Assembly (NCBI GenBank): GCA_028876495.1
Contig: JAGWRO010000041.1
Span: 124,001-188,000 of the forward strand
DNA length: 64,000 nucleotides
Direction: 5' to 3'
DNA from: Bacteroidota bacterium
GTDB lineage: Bacteria; Bacteroidota; Bacteroidia; Chitinophagales; Chitinophagaceae
Shown one piece after another: positions 5,555 to 12,684 of this stretch. Under the pieces are notes generated by a model that saw only the letters and a list, made by a program, of their open reading frames with translations, made no database searches and was not told the origin of the DNA. The position numbers and the translations under genes are program-made. The stretch's first letter is position 1; each line of letters starts with the position of its first letter.

Positions 5555-6838
5555 ATGGTTCAAAAAATAATAGCGCTTTCATTGCGCAACCGTTACATCG
5601 TACTCGCAATTGCGTTGGGACTTTTTGCATGGGGCATTTATGCAATTCAGAAAAATCCAATTGATGCCATTCCCGATTTGTCGGAAAACCAGGTAATTGT
5701 TTTTACGGAATGGACCGGCCAAAGTCCGCAGATCATGGAAGACCAGGTAACGTATCCGTTAGTATCGAACCTGCAAGGTATTCCAGAAGTGAAAAACATA
5801 AGAGGGACATCCATGTTTGGGATGAGTTTTGTATATGTAATCTTTAATGATAATGTAGATACCTATTGGGCCCGAACCCGTGTACTGGAAAGATTAAATT
5901 ATGCTCAGCGATTGCTTCCGGCCGGCGTTACGCCAGCCTTAGGTCCTGATGCTACAGGTGTAGGGCAGGTACTTTGGTACACATTAGATGCAAAAAACTT
6001 AGACCTCGGAGAACAGCGTACACTACAGGATTGGTACATAAAATTTGCTTTGCAAACCGTACCGGGAGTTGCGGAAATCGCTTCCTTCGGTGGTTTTGAA
6101 AAACAATATCAAATTGTGATTGACCCGTTGAAGCTACAGTATTACAACATCTCTTTGATGGATGTAATGAACAAAGTAAAAGCCAACAATAATGATGTGG
6201 GCGGGCGAAAATTTGAAATGAGTAATATGTCATACATCATTCGGGGCTTGGGTTACATAAAGAACAAGGAAGATATCGAAAATATTGGAATTGCCAACAA
6301 TAACGGCATACCGGTACGAGTGAAAGATATTGGAACGGTGCAGTTGGGAGGCGAAGAACGCCTCGGAATATTTGATGAAAATGGCAACGGCGAAGTGGTT
6401 GGAGGTATTGTGGTAATGCGTTATGGTGAGAATGCCGACAAAGTGATAAAGGCCGTAAAAGCCAAAATGAAAATTGTTGAAAAAGGTTTGCCTGCTGGTG
6501 TTCATTTTAAAATTGCCTACGACAGAAGCACTTTAATTGAAGCGGCGATTAAAAACATCAAAGGAAAATTGATTGAAGAAATGATAGCGGTGTCGCTAAT
6601 CGTTTTGCTTTTCCTTTTTCACTGGCGAAGTGCTTTAAACATCATCATTCAAATACCGATTACGGTTGCTATCAGTTTTATTTTATTGAATGCCTTTGGC
6701 CTTTCTTCCAATATCATGTCTTTAACAGGGATTGCACTGGCAATAGGGGTTATCGTCGATAACGGAATTATCATGTCAGAAAACGCGTATCATAATTTAT
6801 CACAATGGCAAAATGATCCTGCTAATAAACTGAAATAA
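5555..6838 (+). CDS. cusA: CusA-type RND metal efflux pump, N-terminal part (split gene)
   Basis: This is the first 427 residues of a heavy-metal RND transporter. It has the N-terminal helix (residues about 13-29), a periplasmic porter region (TEWTGQSPQIMEDQVTYPL and onward), and helices 2-4 ending with GVIVDNGIIMSENAY. The Asp in that helix is conserved in proton-coupled RND pumps. The frame stops at TAA 6836-6838 in the cytoplasmic loop after TM4, and the next ORF continues with the rest of the protein one base later. Together they total about 1073 residues, a normal CusA/CzcA length, so nothing appears to be missing. A one-base change or sequencing error could explain the break, and so could a true two-piece pump. 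Cu/Ag specificity is inferred from the neighbours. Confidence 0.9.
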   Translation: MVQKIIALSLRNRYIVLAIALGLFAWGIYAIQKNPIDAIPDLSENQVIVFTEWTGQSPQIMEDQVTYPLVSNLQGIPEVKNIRGTSMFGMSFVYVIFNDNVDTYWARTRVLERLNYAQRLLPAGVTPALGPDATGVGQVLWYTLDAKNLDLGEQRTLQDWYIKFALQTVPGVAEIASFGGFEKQYQIVIDPLKLQYYNISLMDVMNKVKANNNDVGGRKFEMSNMSYIIRGLGYIKNKEDIENIGIANNNGIPVRVKDIGTVQLGGEERLGIFDENGNGEVVGGIVVMRYGENADKVIKAVKAKMKIVEKGLPAGVHFKIAYDRSTLIEAAIKNIKGKLIEEMIAVSLIVLLFLFHWRSALNIIIQIPITVAISFILLNAFGLSSNIMSLTGIALAIGVIVDNGIIMSENAYHNLSQWQNDPANKLK

Positions 6839-6839
6839 A

Positions 6840-8780
6840 ATGAACCGTTTATTTAAAAGAATATTACCCGAAAGAAATTATGTAAAGATTCCTGAAGACA
6901 TAAGAATGAACATTATTGAAAGTTCGTGCAAGCAGGTTTCAAGAGGCGTGTTTTTTTCAACCATTATCATCATCACCTCTTTTTTGCCGGTTTTTTTACT
7001 AACGGGACAGGAAGGAAAATTGTTTGGCCCGCTGGCGTATACGAAAACGTTTATCATTGCGGTTGATGCTATCCTGATCATCACACTTGCCCCGGTATTG
7101 ATCTCCTTTTTTATGAAAGGAAGATTTACTCCCGAGAATCATAACCCGGTTAACCGCGGTCTTTCTAAAATTTACGAGCCGGTTATAAGATGGTGTACTA
7201 AATGGCGAAAGACAACGCTGGCAATAAATCTAATAGCCTTATTGGTGAGTATTCCACTCATCATGAGTTTGGGAAAAGAATTTATGCCGCCGCTGGATGA
7301 AGGGTCTATTTTATTTATGCCGGTAACGATGCCCGATATTTCCAATTCAGAAGTGAAAAGAATTTTGCAGGTGCAGGATAAAATTATTGCTTCTGTTCCT
7401 GAAGTAAAAAATGTTTTGGGCAAAGCCGGAAGAGCTAATACGGCTACAGATAATGCGCCTATGAGCATGATTGAAACGATCATATTACTTAAACCCAAAT
7501 CAGAGTGGAGGCCCGGTAAAACAAAAGAAGATATCGTAAACGAACTCAACAGCAAATTGCAAATTCCCGGCGTTACTAACGGTTGGACACAACCGATCAT
7601 CAACAGGATCAATATGCTTTCAACCGGTATCAGGACTGATGTTGGCGTAAAAGTATACGGGCAAAATTTAGATACAATTTATGCTTTTGCTCAAAAAATA
7701 AAAATGGAATTGATGGGAATTAACGGGGTGAAGGATTTGTATGTGGAACCTGTTACCGGCGGAAAATATATTGACATACAAATAAAGCGCGATGAAATAA
7801 GCCGTTATGGATTAAGTGTTGATGATGTAAATGCTGTTGTGCAAAGTGCTTTGGGCGGAATGAAACTGACCACTACAATTGAAGGCCGCCAGCGATTTTC
7901 AGTGAATGCGCGGTATGCACAGGATTTCAGGGATAATATGGAAGCATTAAAAAGCTTGCAAGTACAAACAAAAAATTTTGGCCCTGTTCCGTTGCAAGCG
8001 GTTGCGGATATAAAAATTACAACCGGCCCGCCGATGATCAATTCAGAAAATGCTTTATTACGCGGAACGGTATTATTTAATGTTCGGGACCGCGACCTGG
8101 GAGGCACTGTGCAGGAAGCCCAGAATAGGTTAAACAATATGCTTACCAAATTGCCCAAGGGCTATTATATTGAATGGAGTGGACAATACGAAAATCTATT
8201 GAGCAGCGAAAAAACAATGAAAGTGATTTTACCCGTTGTATTAGTCATCATTTTTTTCTCGATGTATTTCGCATTTAACTCTGCCCGTGAAGCCTTACTC
8301 AGCTTAATTTCTATTCCGTTTGCGCTTATTGGCGGCGTGTTCATGATCTGGTTCTGGAAAGTGAATTTATCAGTGGCCGTGGCGGTTGGTTTTATAGCAT
8401 TATTTGGCTTAGCTGTAGAGACAGGTATTGTAATGATCATCTATTTAAATGATGCCATGCAACAATTAGTTAAAGAAAAAGGTAATTCAAGGGAAACGAT
8501 TACCAAAGCCGATTTGCGTGACTACGTTATTGCCGGCGCTGCAAAAAGATTACGTCCTAAAATGATGACAGTGTTGGTAATTCTTATCGGTTTGATTCCT
8601 ATTCTATGGAGTTCAGGAGTGGGCAGTGATGTAATGAAACCAATTGTGCTACCAATGATCGGCGGTGTGTTTACATCCGCGGTGTTTGTCCTGTTGGTAT
8701 CGCCGGTGATTTTTTTAATGAATAAAGAATATGAGTTGAGAAAGTATGGAAAGATACAGGTACTGGAAACAAATCATTAG
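6840..8780 (+). CDS. cusA: CusA-type RND metal efflux pump, C-terminal part (split gene)
   Basis: This is the remaining 646 residues of the RND pump. It starts in the TM4-TM5 loop (MNRLFKRILPERN), enters TM5 at GVFFSTIIIITSFLPVFLLT, and carries TGQEGKLFGPLAYTKT, the second porter region (RINMLSTGIRTDVGVKVYG, GPPMINSENA) and helices 8-12. The ATG begins one base after the stop of the first part (TAAAATG), an arrangement that allows coupled re-initiation. The frame upstream is closed at TGA 6831. Deleting one A from the AAA at 6833-6835 would join the two ORFs as N-K-L-N-K-M-N-R. The protein cannot work alone because it lacks TM1-TM4, so it must either pair with the first part or be the remnant of a broken gene. 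Confidence 0.9.
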   Translation: MNRLFKRILPERNYVKIPEDIRMNIIESSCKQVSRGVFFSTIIIITSFLPVFLLTGQEGKLFGPLAYTKTFIIAVDAILIITLAPVLISFFMKGRFTPENHNPVNRGLSKIYEPVIRWCTKWRKTTLAINLIALLVSIPLIMSLGKEFMPPLDEGSILFMPVTMPDISNSEVKRILQVQDKIIASVPEVKNVLGKAGRANTATDNAPMSMIETIILLKPKSEWRPGKTKEDIVNELNSKLQIPGVTNGWTQPIINRINMLSTGIRTDVGVKVYGQNLDTIYAFAQKIKMELMGINGVKDLYVEPVTGGKYIDIQIKRDEISRYGLSVDDVNAVVQSALGGMKLTTTIEGRQRFSVNARYAQDFRDNMEALKSLQVQTKNFGPVPLQAVADIKITTGPPMINSENALLRGTVLFNVRDRDLGGTVQEAQNRLNNMLTKLPKGYYIEWSGQYENLLSSEKTMKVILPVVLVIIFFSMYFAFNSAREALLSLISIPFALIGGVFMIWFWKVNLSVAVAVGFIALFGLAVETGIVMIIYLNDAMQQLVKEKGNSRETITKADLRDYVIAGAAKRLRPKMMTVLVILIGLIPILWSSGVGSDVMKPIVLPMIGGVFTSAVFVLLVSPVIFLMNKEYELRKYGKIQVLETNH

Positions 8781-8816
8781 TAACAAAAAATATTTTTGAA
8801 AAACAAAATAGAAACG

Positions 8817-10061
8817 ATGAAAAAAAATATTTTGATAATAGCGGGATTAATTTTAGCTGCGAATTATGCAAATGCGCAGGTTTTAAAATTGAACGATATC
8901 TTTTCGATCATTCAGAAAAATAACCCTGAATTGAATATGTACGATGCGCAAATACGTTCGCTCGATGAAGCATCTAAAGGTGCTAAAAGCTGGACGCCGC
9001 CGGAGTTTGGCGCTGGTTTTTTTATGACGCCGTACAATCTTGCTCTTACAAAAGCTACGCCCACCCAAAAAGGAATGGGTGCATTCATGATCAGTGCTTC
9101 GCAAATGTTGCCCAATAAAAAAGAGCAAAATGCAAATGAAAAATACCTGCAATCTTTATCATCAGTAAACAAAGAAAATAAGCAATTTTCTCTTAACGGT
9201 TTGTATGCTGAGGCAAAAAAAAATTATTACGACTGGATGGTTACTGAAAAGAAAATAGCGGTATTAAATGACAATGAAAAACTGCTGAATTTTATGATCC
9301 AAAGTGCTGAGCTGAGGTATAAAAACAACCTTGGAAAACTGAATGCCTATTACAAAGCGAAAGCGGCGTTAGGTAAAATTGAGGATCAGCTTGAAGTGTT
9401 GACTAACCAGGAAAAGAAAAATAAAATCGCATTAAATACTTTGATGAACAGGGATAGAAATGAAAACTTTACTGTCGATACCAACTATGTAATTAAAAAT
9501 TATAACGCGGCAGACACGAATTATTTAATCCAGTCAAGAAGCGATATAAAAGCGGTAGCGCAGAATCTGGAAATTAATCAATTGCAATTGAACCTGGAGA
9601 AAACAAAGCAGCTACCACAATTTGGGATTTCTTATAATCACATGTTCGCATTTGGTCAATCGCCATGGCTGTTCTCTTTGATGGCAACTGTAAAAATTCC
9701 TTTGGCCCCTTGGTCCGCAGGCTCTTACAAAGCAAAAGTTGAAAGTTTAAAATGGCAACAACAGGCTTTTGAAGCGCAACGACAGATGATCATTAACCAG
9801 GCATCCGGCGAAGCCGGTGATTTGCTTGCTTCCATTAATAGTAAAAAGAAACAGATAAAATTATTTGAAGAGAATATTATTCCCGCGCTGAAAAAAAATT
9901 ACCAGGTAATGCAGTTGGCGTACGAACAAAATACAGGCGAATTGTTTGAATTGTTTGATGCGTGGGAAACATTGAATATGACACAACTTGATTACCTGGA
10001 TCAGGTGCAGGATTTATTAGATCTGCAGGTGCAGATGGATAAAACCCTGGAACAAAAATGA
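8817..10061 (+). CDS. TolC-family outer-membrane efflux channel (CusC-like)
   Basis: About 414 residues. The frame opens at TTG 8796, but ATG 8817 begins a clear signal peptide (MKKNILIIAGLILAANYANA), so that start was chosen. The mature protein is rich in long helices with Gln, Lys and Asn and shows the duplicated helical pattern of outer-membrane efflux proteins, with LETAxLxY-like segments (ELFDAWETLNMTQLDYLDQV) near the end. No lipobox is present, unlike E. coli CusC. It would form the trimeric channel through which the CusA/CusB-type complex expels copper. It lies between the pump and the adaptors with short gaps, in the same operon. Confidence 0.85.
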   Translation: MKKNILIIAGLILAANYANAQVLKLNDIFSIIQKNNPELNMYDAQIRSLDEASKGAKSWTPPEFGAGFFMTPYNLALTKATPTQKGMGAFMISASQMLPNKKEQNANEKYLQSLSSVNKENKQFSLNGLYAEAKKNYYDWMVTEKKIAVLNDNEKLLNFMIQSAELRYKNNLGKLNAYYKAKAALGKIEDQLEVLTNQEKKNKIALNTLMNRDRNENFTVDTNYVIKNYNAADTNYLIQSRSDIKAVAQNLEINQLQLNLEKTKQLPQFGISYNHMFAFGQSPWLFSLMATVKIPLAPWSAGSYKAKVESLKWQQQAFEAQRQMIINQASGEAGDLLASINSKKKQIKLFEENIIPALKKNYQVMQLAYEQNTGELFELFDAWETLNMTQLDYLDQVQDLLDLQVQMDKTLEQK

Positions 10062-10068
10062 AAAGATT

Positions 10069-11472
10069 ATGAAAAAGAAAACTTTAATTATAAAACGTTA
10101 TTGTCCGGGTAAAAATTCTGCGAACCCGCTAAAACACTTTGACGGCAAGTGCCACGGCCCTCTCCCTTGGGAGAGGGGTTGGAGTGAGGCTTTACAGGCT
10201 GGAAGGATCTTCCACATATTTAGTTGGACAACAATAATTATAAAAACATTTTTACTACTAAGCTTTGCTTTAGGGTTGATGCTTTTTATGGGATGCAAGA
10301 ATCATAATAAAAACAAGGTTGGTGCTGCAACTGAAACAGAGGAGATCTACAGCTGTTCCATGCATCCGCAAATAATAGAACATGCGCCGGGGCGCTGCCC
10401 TATTTGTGGAATGACCCTGGTAAAAAAAGAAAATGCCGCGAGAGAAATTTCTAAAGTGGATCTTTCTACATTGCTTGAACCAGTTAATAATACCGTATTA
10501 TCTTCTGTTCCTGTTACTTCTGTTAAATTTGAAAAACAGCAGTTACGGTTAAACGCTTTAGGTACGGTGGAATATGATACAAGATTCATGAAAACCATAT
10601 CAGCTCGTGTTAGCGGACGGATCAATAAATTGTACATCAAATATCGTTTTCAACCGGTTCGTGCAGGCGAAAAAATAATGGAACTCTACAGTCCTGAATT
10701 ATTGACGGCGCAACAAAATCTTTTATTTCTTATAAAGAATGATCCTGAAAATAAACCACTGATCGATGCAGCAAAACAAAGGTTGTTATTGCTTGGAATG
10801 CATGAAAGCGATTTGCAAAGAATGATAACTAACGGTAATGCTCAGCCGAACGTTACCGTCTACAGCAATTATACCGGTCATATTCATGAAGCTGGACAGA
10901 AGGGTTATTCACCGGAGCCGGTTAGTTTCCCAACTGAAACGCCGGAACTTACTGTTAAAGAAGGCATGTATATAGATAGGGGACAACCAGTGTTCCAGGT
11001 AAATAACATGGATCATGTTTGGATAAGTTTAAACTTATTTCCCGGCGATAATTCATTAGTGAAAGTAGGAACTCCTGTAACAATTATCACTGAAACAGAA
11101 CCGGGTAAAAAAATTAAAGGGAAAATTAATTTTATTGAACCTTTTTACCGCGACAATTCAAAAACAGTAACGGCAAGAGTTTATCTCGACAATTCAGCAT
11201 TAATGATACCTGTCGGGAGCCAGGTAACAGCAACCGTTGATGTAAACTCCACTTCCGGTAATTGGTTGCCGGAATCTGCGGTGCTCTCTTTAGGTTTAGA
11301 TAAAGTGGTATTTCTTAAAGAAGGAAAAGTGTTTAAAGTAAAGCCGGTAACAACAGGTATTACGGCAAATAATTTGATTCAAATAACCGCAGGCTTAAAT
11401 GCGAAAGATAGTGTTGCAGCTAATGCTCAATTTTTGGTAGACAGCGAAGGATTTATAAAAGTTAAAAAGTAA
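10069..11472 (+). CDS. CusB-like periplasmic adaptor with HMBD domain; signal peptide interrupted
   Basis: A 467-residue RND adaptor. Residues about 103-130 are a heavy-metal-binding domain (YSCSMHPQI, CPICGMTLVKK), followed by the barrel-sandwich, helical hairpin and beta-barrel parts of a CusB/HlyD-type adaptor. The N-terminus is odd. Residues 1-9 (MKKKTLIIK) look like the start of a signal peptide and residues 60 onward (TFLLLSFALGLMLFMGC) like its hydrophobic core and lipobox, but 50 unrelated residues lie between them. The DNA shows a 150-bp in-frame insertion there. Without it the protein would be a normal lipoprotein of about 417 residues. Whether the extended signal still works, or translation starts later at a non-standard codon, is unknown. 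Confidence 0.85.
   Translation: MKKKTLIIKRYCPGKNSANPLKHFDGKCHGPLPWERGWSEALQAGRIFHIFSWTTIIIKTFLLLSFALGLMLFMGCKNHNKNKVGAATETEEIYSCSMHPQIIEHAPGRCPICGMTLVKKENAAREISKVDLSTLLEPVNNTVLSSVPVTSVKFEKQQLRLNALGTVEYDTRFMKTISARVSGRINKLYIKYRFQPVRAGEKIMELYSPELLTAQQNLLFLIKNDPENKPLIDAAKQRLLLLGMHESDLQRMITNGNAQPNVTVYSNYTGHIHEAGQKGYSPEPVSFPTETPELTVKEGMYIDRGQPVFQVNNMDHVWISLNLFPGDNSLVKVGTPVTIITETEPGKKIKGKINFIEPFYRDNSKTVTARVYLDNSALMIPVGSQVTATVDVNSTSGNWLPESAVLSLGLDKVVFLKEGKVFKVKPVTTGITANNLIQITAGLNAKDSVAANAQFLVDSEGFIKVKK
10086..10245 (+). mobile_element. 150-bp in-frame palindromic insertion with 10-bp flanking duplication
   Basis: AATTATAAAA occurs at 10086-10095 and again at 10236-10245, flanking 140 bp of unrelated sequence. 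The offset is 150 bp, exactly 50 codons, and the insert has no in-frame stop. It contains a perfect hairpin at 10158-10177 (CCCTCTCCC, TT, GGGAGAGGG) followed by GTTGGAGTGAGG, which resembles a repeat common in intergenic DNA of many bacteria. No transposase is present, so it would be non-autonomous. Removing one duplication plus the insert restores a perfect lipoprotein signal peptide in the host gene. Confidence 0.8.
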
Positions 11473-11475
11473 ATC

Positions 11476-12684
11476 ATGAAAAATTATTGCAAAGTACTTA
11501 TAGCATTGATGTTTATCATTGCAACAGGATGTGAAAACAAAAACACAAAGACAATTGCAACAAATGAAGACATCATCTACACCTGCCCCATGGACCCACA
11601 AGTGGTGGAAGCGAAGCCGGGAATTTGCCCTATTTGTCACATGGAATTGTTACCTGTAAAAAAGGGAATGGAACAAAAGAATAATGATGAATTGAAACTA
11701 AGCCCTGAACAAATGCAATTAGGAAATATAAAAGTAGATACTATTCAAAGTGGTTCGCTTGGCCATCAAATGATTTTAACCGGAACTTTGAATTTTGATG
11801 AGACCAAAACAAATGCAGTAAGTGCATGGGTAGCAGGCCGAATTGAGAAATTGTTTTTTAAACAAGTGGGAGATTATCTTGCCAAAGGTGCTCCTATTTA
11901 TGAGATCTATAGCGAGGAACTGAACAACGCAAAACAGGAATATTTGCTTGCACAGCAAAAGAAAGCAACCCTTGGAAATTCGATCGTAAATTTTGATGAG
12001 GTGATTTCTTCAGCAAAGAATAAATTGCTTTTATGGGGAATGAGTGAAAAGCAAATAGAAAATATAAATGCAGAATCAATTAAAAATCCGCGTACAACCT
12101 TTTATAGCACGGCATCCGGTTATGTTACCGAACTTCCCTTTCAGGAAGGTGATTATGTGGCTGAAGGAGGAACAATTGTAAAGCTTGCTAATTTGTCAAC
12201 TTTGTGGGTCGAAGCACAAATTTATGCGACACAGCTTTCACAAATCAATGGTGCAAAAAAGGCAATTGTCGAAATTCCTGACCTGCCAGGCAAAAAGATT
12301 CCAGGCACTATTACTTTTCAAAATCCGGAACTGAGTACTGCTGAAAGAGTCAACCTTGTCCGCATTTCTGTTCCGAATGAAAATAATGAATTGAAACCCG
12401 GAATGGCGGCTTATGTGAAGATAAACACGGGCGATCATCACGTATTGGCGTTACCGTCTGATGCGGTTTTACGTGATGGAAAAATGTCGATGGTGTGGCT
12501 CGAAACCAAACAGAATACTTTCAAAAGTGTGATGGTACAAACGGGCATGGAAAGCGGCGATATGATCGAAATAAAATCAGGCATCCAGCCAAATGATGTG
12601 GTCGTAATTTCAGGGGCATACTTATTGCAGAGTGAATATGTTTTTAGAAAAGGAGCCAATCCTATGGCCGGGATGAAAATGTAG
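11476..12684 (+). CDS. cusB: Second CusB-like periplasmic adaptor with HMBD domain
   Basis: A 402-residue lipoprotein adaptor with lipobox ATGC (Cys19). Residues about 37-62 form a heavy-metal-binding domain (YTCPMDPQVV, CPICHMELLPV), in which His replaces the usual Gly in the second half. The rest is a typical membrane-fusion protein: ILTGTLNFDETK leading into the barrel-sandwich, AWVAGRIEKLF, a helical hairpin, and a C-terminal part ending ISGAYLLQSEYVFRKGA. The gene starts 3 bp after the first adaptor, so the two are certainly co-transcribed. Two different adaptors with one pump could form a mixed hexamer, or one could be the functional copy if the first is harmed by its insertion. The gene symbol is by analogy with E. 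coli. Confidence 0.9.
   Translation: MKNYCKVLIALMFIIATGCENKNTKTIATNEDIIYTCPMDPQVVEAKPGICPICHMELLPVKKGMEQKNNDELKLSPEQMQLGNIKVDTIQSGSLGHQMILTGTLNFDETKTNAVSAWVAGRIEKLFFKQVGDYLAKGAPIYEIYSEELNNAKQEYLLAQQKKATLGNSIVNFDEVISSAKNKLLLWGMSEKQIENINAESIKNPRTTFYSTASGYVTELPFQEGDYVAEGGTIVKLANLSTLWVEAQIYATQLSQINGAKKAIVEIPDLPGKKIPGTITFQNPELSTAERVNLVRISVPNENNELKPGMAAYVKINTGDHHVLALPSDAVLRDGKMSMVWLETKQNTFKSVMVQTGMESGDMIEIKSGIQPNDVVVISGAYLLQSEYVFRKGANPMAGMKM

Follow-up and report, generated by a model that had tools for sequence, protein, structure and literature searches.

A MITE of 141 bp, together with a 9-bp target-site duplication, was inserted once into a cusB-like periplasmic adaptor gene, directly after the ninth codon, and it probably persists there as a tolerated extension of the signal-peptide n-region that is discarded at lipoprotein processing. 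The gene lies in what we call the window, the whole stretch of 64,000 nucleotides analysed, which belongs to contig C27 of genome G000 (4.7 Mb, 99 contigs). It encodes a CusB/HlyD-type adaptor of 467 residues whose N-terminus bears a heavy-metal-binding motif, and is flanked by a TolC-like gene (8796-10061) and by a second adaptor gene (11476-12684). The first 76 codons read MKKKTLIIK, then 50 further residues, then TFLLLSFALGLMLFMGC. The coordinates are collected in Table 1. In the same neighbourhood, a CusA-like RND pump is encoded by two adjacent ORFs (5555-6838 and 6840-8780, separated by TAAAATG), with Pfam ACR_tran 1-420 and 421-1019 on the two; because the pump of genome G001 is split at the identical place, this looks like a conserved two-gene pump.

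Table 1. The inserted element and the gene that holds it (positions in the window)
Feature	Position	Strand	Basis
cusB-like periplasmic adaptor (lipoprotein) gene, holds the insertion	10069..11472	+	ORF; Pfam HlyD_D23, HMBD, HlyD_3
Original signal-peptide n-region, codons 1-9 (MKKKTLIIK)	10069..10095	+	identical in the empty-site orthologue of G001
Target-site duplication ATTATAAAA, left copy	10087..10095	+	comparison with other copies
141-bp MITE with IS4-family-type ends	10096..10236	+	ends, length and 9-bp duplication shared with copies in other genomes
Left terminal inverted repeat CGTTATTGTCCGGGTAAAAA	10096..10115	+	direct reading
REP-like / intrastrand-triplex-like core inside the MITE: perfect hairpin 10158-10177 and GTTGGAGTGAGGCTTT tail	10158..10193	+	matches in the genus; TMECO table
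Right terminal inverted repeat, TATTGTTGTCCAACTAAATA on the minus strand	10217..10236	-	direct reading
Target-site duplication ATTATAAAA, right copy, restores IIK before the hydrophobic core	10237..10245	+	comparison with other copies
Signal h-region and lipobox, codons 60-76 (TFLLLSFALGLMLFMGC)	10246..10296	+	hydropathy maximum at codon 61; dN/dS 0.13 (G000 versus G018)

The direction of the change can be read from related genes. The adaptor was searched for in 39 genomes, G000 included; 30 matched at E<=0.001, many of them through distant paralogues, and the N-termini were read for 10 of the best loci. The insert is present in G000 and G018 and absent from the other eight. In G001, whose protein is 80% identical, the site is uninterrupted (MKKKTLIIKTFLLLSIGLGSLGFAGC) and the DNA ACTTTAATTATAAAAACG spans the insertion point. 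A sequence-only reading of the window had proposed that joining the flanks would give the ancestral state of a lipoprotein signal split between its n-region and its core; the empty site of G001 bears this out, and the split is supported by this orthologue together with the comparison of G000 and G018. In G018 (protein 86% identical), the insert sits at the same base as in G000 and its DNA is 87% identical. Since it is common to these two and missing from the other eight loci, there was one insertion event, in their common ancestor. The insertion is thus real and the ancestral empty state readable. A scan of a genome-contig collection, which may not include close copies of G000, gave six related loci, among which only the contig of G018 covers the insert. 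This contig is a 3.3-kb metagenome contig with a coverage of 4.4, compared with 12.3 for another adaptor-bearing contig of that assembly, and may for this reason come from another strain; a second adaptor, 66% identical to that of the window, is also assigned to G018. The sequence-only reading had regarded relatives with the same 50 residues as speaking against an insertion. G018 has them, as they would be found if they were ancestral and had been lost in other lineages, yet the insertion stands: G001 offers an exact empty site, seven more distant loci also lack the residues, and the perfect 9-bp duplication, as at independent copies of the element, refutes an ancestral origin, to which we give virtually no credence.

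The borders of the element coincide with terminal inverted repeats and the duplication. The repeats are imperfect, agreeing at 13 of 20 positions by visual count, and the end consensus is TTRTTGTCCRRnTAA. The full identical stretch on either flank measures 11 nt (TAATTATAAAA). A 10-bp repeat had been claimed at first sight, and AATTATAAAA does occur at 10086-10095 and again at 10236-10245. The direct repeat is therefore real; as for the duplication, comparison with other copies of the element sets it at the last 9 nt of TAATTATAAAA, ATTATAAAA, the additional base being a chance match. The element and one copy of the duplication add up to 150 bp, exactly the 50 codons without a stop that had been noticed in the open frame. 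The openness of the frame is by itself weak evidence: when the element was shuffled 5000 times by mononucleotides, at least one of the six frames was open in 2272 cases.

The 141-bp element is short, carries no transposase gene and has relatives in multiple copies. Within G000, a search with a covariance model built from seven MITE copies gave a single full copy, that of the window; scanning the genome for the MITE ends with 2 mismatches gave 76 places, fewer than the 111 of a reversed control, and the matches besides the window were taken as chance. The end pattern was found in 6 of 298 genomes of the order, one of which, G161 from another family, had 8 matches; single matches without a duplication in G317, G286, G227 and G098 were treated as chance. 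G161 holds 11 copies, each 141 bp long and flanked by an exact 9-bp duplication, with other hairpins inside. At loci L099, L101-L106, L139 and L142-L145 of this genome, 141-bp elements with the same ends enclose two other hairpins. In G011, of the same genus as G000, there are three copies with a window-like core and a 160-bp relative. At one G011 locus (L088), a 16-nt flanking match (1490-1505 and 1638-1653) is longer than the duplication of the relatives and also fits 9 bp; a duplication of about 16 bp, derived from this locus, was dropped because the 11 copies of G161 show exactly 9 bp.

The covariance model matched 17 of the 20 genus genomes at E<=1, many of them through the core alone. 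Among the matches listed for G017, 33 distinct places measure 140-143 bp, and the 21 that were read have a third kind of interior. The G017 loci L220-L238, L194 and L209 have window-type ends; 14 of them were scored, and all but one of these show the 9-bp duplication with no more than one mismatch. Among 98 family genomes sampled with stricter filters, five matched the model at E<=1e-4; apart from G000, G285 (four of six matches) and G426 (one) contained full elements flanked by a duplication. Full copies were found in G011, G017, G008, G006, G285 and G161. A pattern scan that required a duplication and tolerated a single mismatch in it retained 33 of 34 places, 27 of them exact, L092 being left out as a chance pattern match; the lengths were 141 (17 places), 142 (11), 140 (2), 139 (2) and 152 bp (1). 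Without this prior demand, the 9-bp duplication was sought at every model hit with E<=1e-4, 39 in total (29 from the genus search and 10 more from the family sample). It was present with at most one mismatch at 26 of them, whereas 200 shuffled pairings gave 3.4 on average and never more than 8. Two of the other 13 have two mismatches, L223 has the MITE ends and no duplication, and most of the remainder lack one or both ends.

A candidate partner of the element can be named. When 396 genomes of the order were searched for the exact MITE end, 18 contained it, and two of the 30 end-bearing loci inspected, L152 (G198) and L173 (G327), have a transposase gene between two ends. The insertion sequence at L152 measures about 1.4 kb, has the ends CTCTTGTCCGACTAAA and TTGTTGTCCGACTAAA and is flanked on both sides by ATTTAAAAT (9 bp); it encodes a protein of 401 residues with PF14294 (DUF4372), PF01609 and a YREK motif, which scores 213.6 bits against the NCBIfam IS4 family model (cut-off 115). 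L173 encodes the same type of protein, between flanks without a matching duplication. Within the genus, the insertion sequence L180 of G015 has ends (TTGCTGTCCGGTTAA) near those of the window element and a duplication matching at 8 of 9 positions. A genus-wide search of 20 genomes gave a related transposase or a fragment of it in eight, and no matching transposase in G000. The IS4Sa subgroup, as described in the available text of PMC2266710, is defined by the YREK motif, CA ends, duplications of 8-10 bp and a length of 1150-1750 bp, and L152 fits it, a placement by these features (YREK, ends, duplication, length) and not by a tree or an ISfinder match. The window element thus shares its terminal inverted repeats with an autonomous insertion sequence and, with 9 bp at both the window and L152, its duplication length, and it is a MITE of a type that an IS4-family transposase would likely mobilise in trans. 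A mobile-type insertion in frame had been correctly recognised from the sequence; the insert had been described as a hairpin element, but the mobile unit is defined by the terminal inverted repeats shared with the IS4-family element.

According to the scenario that we propose, an IS4-family DDE transposase (PF14294 and PF01609) would mobilise the MITE in trans. The element entered after the ninth codon of the adaptor gene in the ancestor of G000 and G018. As the added 141 + 9 = 150 bp are a multiple of three without a stop in the frame used, the gene stayed open, and the duplication put IIK back ahead of the hydrophobic core. Translation from the original ATG would give a positively charged n-region of 59 residues; the intact core would target the protein, signal peptidase II would cut before the lipobox cysteine at codon 76, and the insert would be thrown away with the signal peptide, leaving the mature adaptor unchanged. 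We infer a long charged n-region and removal of the insert because the core is intact, the hydropathy maximum is kept at codon 61 in G000 and in G018, and the insert peptide is hydrophilic, with 7 K/R and 3 D/E in G000 and 11 and 5 in G018.

All divergence between G000 and G018 post-dates the insertion. The dN/dS ratio is 0.13 for the signal core, 0.15 for the rest of the gene and 0.74 for the insert, the last on 19 changes; selection on the signal core and on the mature protein thus went on after the insert had arrived. After the lipobox, the excess of synonymous over nonsynonymous change is strong (p = 2e-22) and the changes fall 37/21/90 by codon position, compared with 5/9/5 in the insert (chi-square p = 0.001). 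The mature adaptor has been under strong purifying selection since the insertion. This bears on the reading in which the gene is degenerating, or is in fact translated from another start, and the insert is not translated in the working protein. Such a reading could appeal to the 50 residues that now separate the n-region from the core, to an ATG at codon 27 of the G018 frame, within the insert, to the ATG that a related element in G285 brings with it, and to the second adaptor of G018. We hold it to be unlikely, since the part after the lipobox has been selected throughout, codons 1-70 of G000 contain no further in-frame ATG, GTG or TTG, and the gene of neither genome has a frameshift or a stop.

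Within the insert, 19 of 150 sites differ (12.7%); 14 of the changes are nonsynonymous and five synonymous, a division to be expected if the peptide were under no constraint (binomial p = 0.58). With 19 random changes, the probability of creating no stop is 0.42, and the frame having stayed open therefore proves little by itself. However, the insert does not simply evolve without constraint: beyond the lipobox, 87 of 255 synonymous sites differ (34%; Fisher p = 1e-6), and the insert has thus been about 2.7 times slower to change. Because this deficit shows no codon-position bias, a constraint at the RNA or DNA level is possible, on a comparison of two sequences, one of them from a thin metagenome contig. 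The element could then be kept for control, with a hairpin or triplex at the beginning of the gene that tunes adaptor expression, and selection would act on this and not on the peptide. In keeping with such a role, G000 and G018 have the same base at all 18 stem positions and differ in the 2-nt loop alone, and the single-stranded DNA folds with a z-score of -2.5 (1 of 200 shuffles equally stable). However, MITEs normally fold stably, the comparison involves two sequences only, and the best Rfam matches over 9800-10600 fall far below threshold. Promoter-like sites over 9900-10500 are near chance (3 versus 1.2 +/- 1.3 in shuffles, with a sigma-70 consensus that may not suit the phylum), as are terminator-like sites (1 versus 0.6). 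A control function as the reason for keeping the element is therefore improbable in our view, and we retain the tolerated, discarded n-region extension as the best explanation.

The hairpin at the centre of the element deserves separate consideration. The perfect 9-bp hairpin first noticed in the sequence is indeed there, with the stem CCCTCTCCC-TT-GGGAGAGGG, and the core continues with GGAGTGAGG. Its loop (10167-10168) is TT in G000 and AA in G018 (L005), as if the palindrome had been inverted. The perfect-stem pattern occurs at three places in G000. Of the 20 genus genomes, 11 contain the core at E<=0.01, among them G016 with 13 matches and G003 with 10, and most of the matches lack MITE ends. 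One may ask whether the core itself was the unit that inserted here, in the manner of Rickettsia palindromic elements or of REP/RAYT elements. The latter are hairpins that move as units and are not known to leave a target duplication. The wide occurrence of the core across the genus without MITE ends, and its in-frame position in several conserved genes, would be in line with this idea. At this site, however, the borders are terminal inverted repeats with a 9-bp duplication, and related MITEs in G161 and G017 hold quite different hairpins between the same ends, so that the hairpin is a passenger within the MITE and its insertion as the unit here very unlikely. We rejected the hairpin as the mobile unit at this site; among the core loci whose flanks were read, MITE ends were seen by eye only at those of the window, of G018 and of L088.

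Elsewhere in the genus, modules of the form core, DUF559 nuclease-like domain, core lie in frame within conserved enzymes of G018 (L087) and G001 (L215). The LeuRS-like protein of L087 (635-3034, plus strand) has two DUF559 stretches and three cores, at residues 291, 428 and 673; when it is aligned with a solved LeuRS, its residues 289 and 435 fall on the neighbouring residues 236/237. Insertion was checked by alignment only for leuS. The protein of L215 (1-1992, minus strand) has DUF559 (231-337) between cores at 145 and 363, with B12-binding and MeaB domains outside. Such a module looks like a mobile nuclease element with triplex-motif repeats as its borders, translated within the host protein. 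The core is also read in frame, as peptides such as PSPVGEGLGVR, in UvrD-like, RibD-like, glycosyltransferase, GatB-like and MgsA-like proteins (L075 1142-2263, minus; L090 963-2105, plus; L094 988-2151, plus; L148 26-1555, minus; L218 902-2200, plus). Moreover, it stands alone and in frame directly before the first hydrophobic stretch, a position like that in the window, in a pectinesterase-like protein of G000 (L003 531-1622, minus), an HlyD-type adaptor of G003 (L211 1484-2518, plus) and a membrane protein of G009 (L071 643-1584, minus). On these sequences, the core without MITE ends, in frame in conserved genes, recalls Rickettsia palindromic elements more than the MITE does.

Insertion into a gene is the exception among the MITE copies examined. 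When ORFs of at least 80 codons were sought over 47 copies (37 + 10, some with short flanks), 38 overlapped none, six overlapped an ORF end by 3-87 nt, and three lay wholly within an ORF: those of G000 and G018, which represent one event, and L247 of G285. At L247, a 141-bp element with the duplication ATTAAATAT/ATTAAATAC sits behind the gene start and adds 50 codons in frame, giving MKPYIKYH, the insert, then IKYHKQSSLVAGLLMSCLTVFSQ; G471 has the empty site MKSYIKYHKQSSLVAGLLMSCLTVFSQ at the same place. The host gene, named from its sequence, is presumably amidohydrolase-like. The right end of the element provides a new ATG immediately ahead of the signal; translation could begin at this codon and yield a short signal peptide, in which case the insert need not be translated. 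Both in-gene events thus concern the n-region of a signal peptide, add exactly 50 codons and have an empty-site relative. This recurrence, which rests on two events, is the potentially new part of our results. We suggest, tentatively and more as a conjecture than as an expectation, that mobile DNA inserted in frame has repeatedly found a safe harbour in the n-region of cleaved signal peptides, where the added residues are removed or bypassed by a new start and A/T-rich lysine codons are a preferred target. Together with the case of G285, the present one makes it testable whether n-regions tolerate long in-frame insertions because the added residues are absent from the mature protein.

BrickBuilt and MITECca01 are MITEs of Bacteroidota hosts. 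As far as the available descriptions go, BrickBuilt is always intergenic and MITECca01 is tied to IS982 and mostly intergenic, both unlike the MITE of the window. In the accessible parts of the open-licence literature, we found neither a MITE that had entered an already existing signal peptide nor an account of the family of the window MITE, which is in each case weak evidence of novelty. The window element has ends related to those of the IS4Sa-like insertion sequences (PMC2266710) and their MITEs, and a 9-bp duplication; unlike the insertion sequences, it lacks a transposase. The layout of the core (CCCTCTCCC / GGGAGAGGG / GGGGTGAGGG) resembles that of the intrastrand triplex motif TMECO, which combines a C-rich arm, a G-rich arm and another G-rich strand able to fold back; the third strand shows differences from the table of PMC4666352. 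In the parts of that source at hand, TMECO in E. coli is always intergenic and has no association with mobile elements, whereas the core of the window rides on a MITE and is coding; triplex-type hairpin repeats can thus travel as passengers between MITE ends.

In-frame insertions of MITEs and Rickettsia palindromic elements have been reviewed (PMC10969869, PMC2229807; available in part), and the latter resemble the window MITE in their length of about 150 bp, their position in frame within genes and a host protein that is apparently functional. They differ, in the same accounts, in sitting in many genes and in encoding a conserved peptide, whereas the MITE described here has three of 47 copies (two events) in an ORF, a peptide that drifts, with 14 nonsynonymous changes in 50 codons, and a clear insertion-sequence partner. 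The analogy with these elements that the sequence-only reading had drawn is partly borne out by the hairpin core, in frame within several conserved genes, and not by the window MITE. The nearest parallel concerning the signal is the Yersinia YAPL/RU-2 at YPO1552, where, in the passages available (PMC2229807), MITE sequence contributes to a predicted signal peptide; there it helps to form a new signal peptide, whereas the window MITE enlarges an existing, conserved n-region. In-frame MITEs being already known, the present case adds to them a polarised example, with an empty site, a shared filled site, sister copies and a partner insertion sequence, in which mobile DNA entered a working gene and selection on that gene continued.
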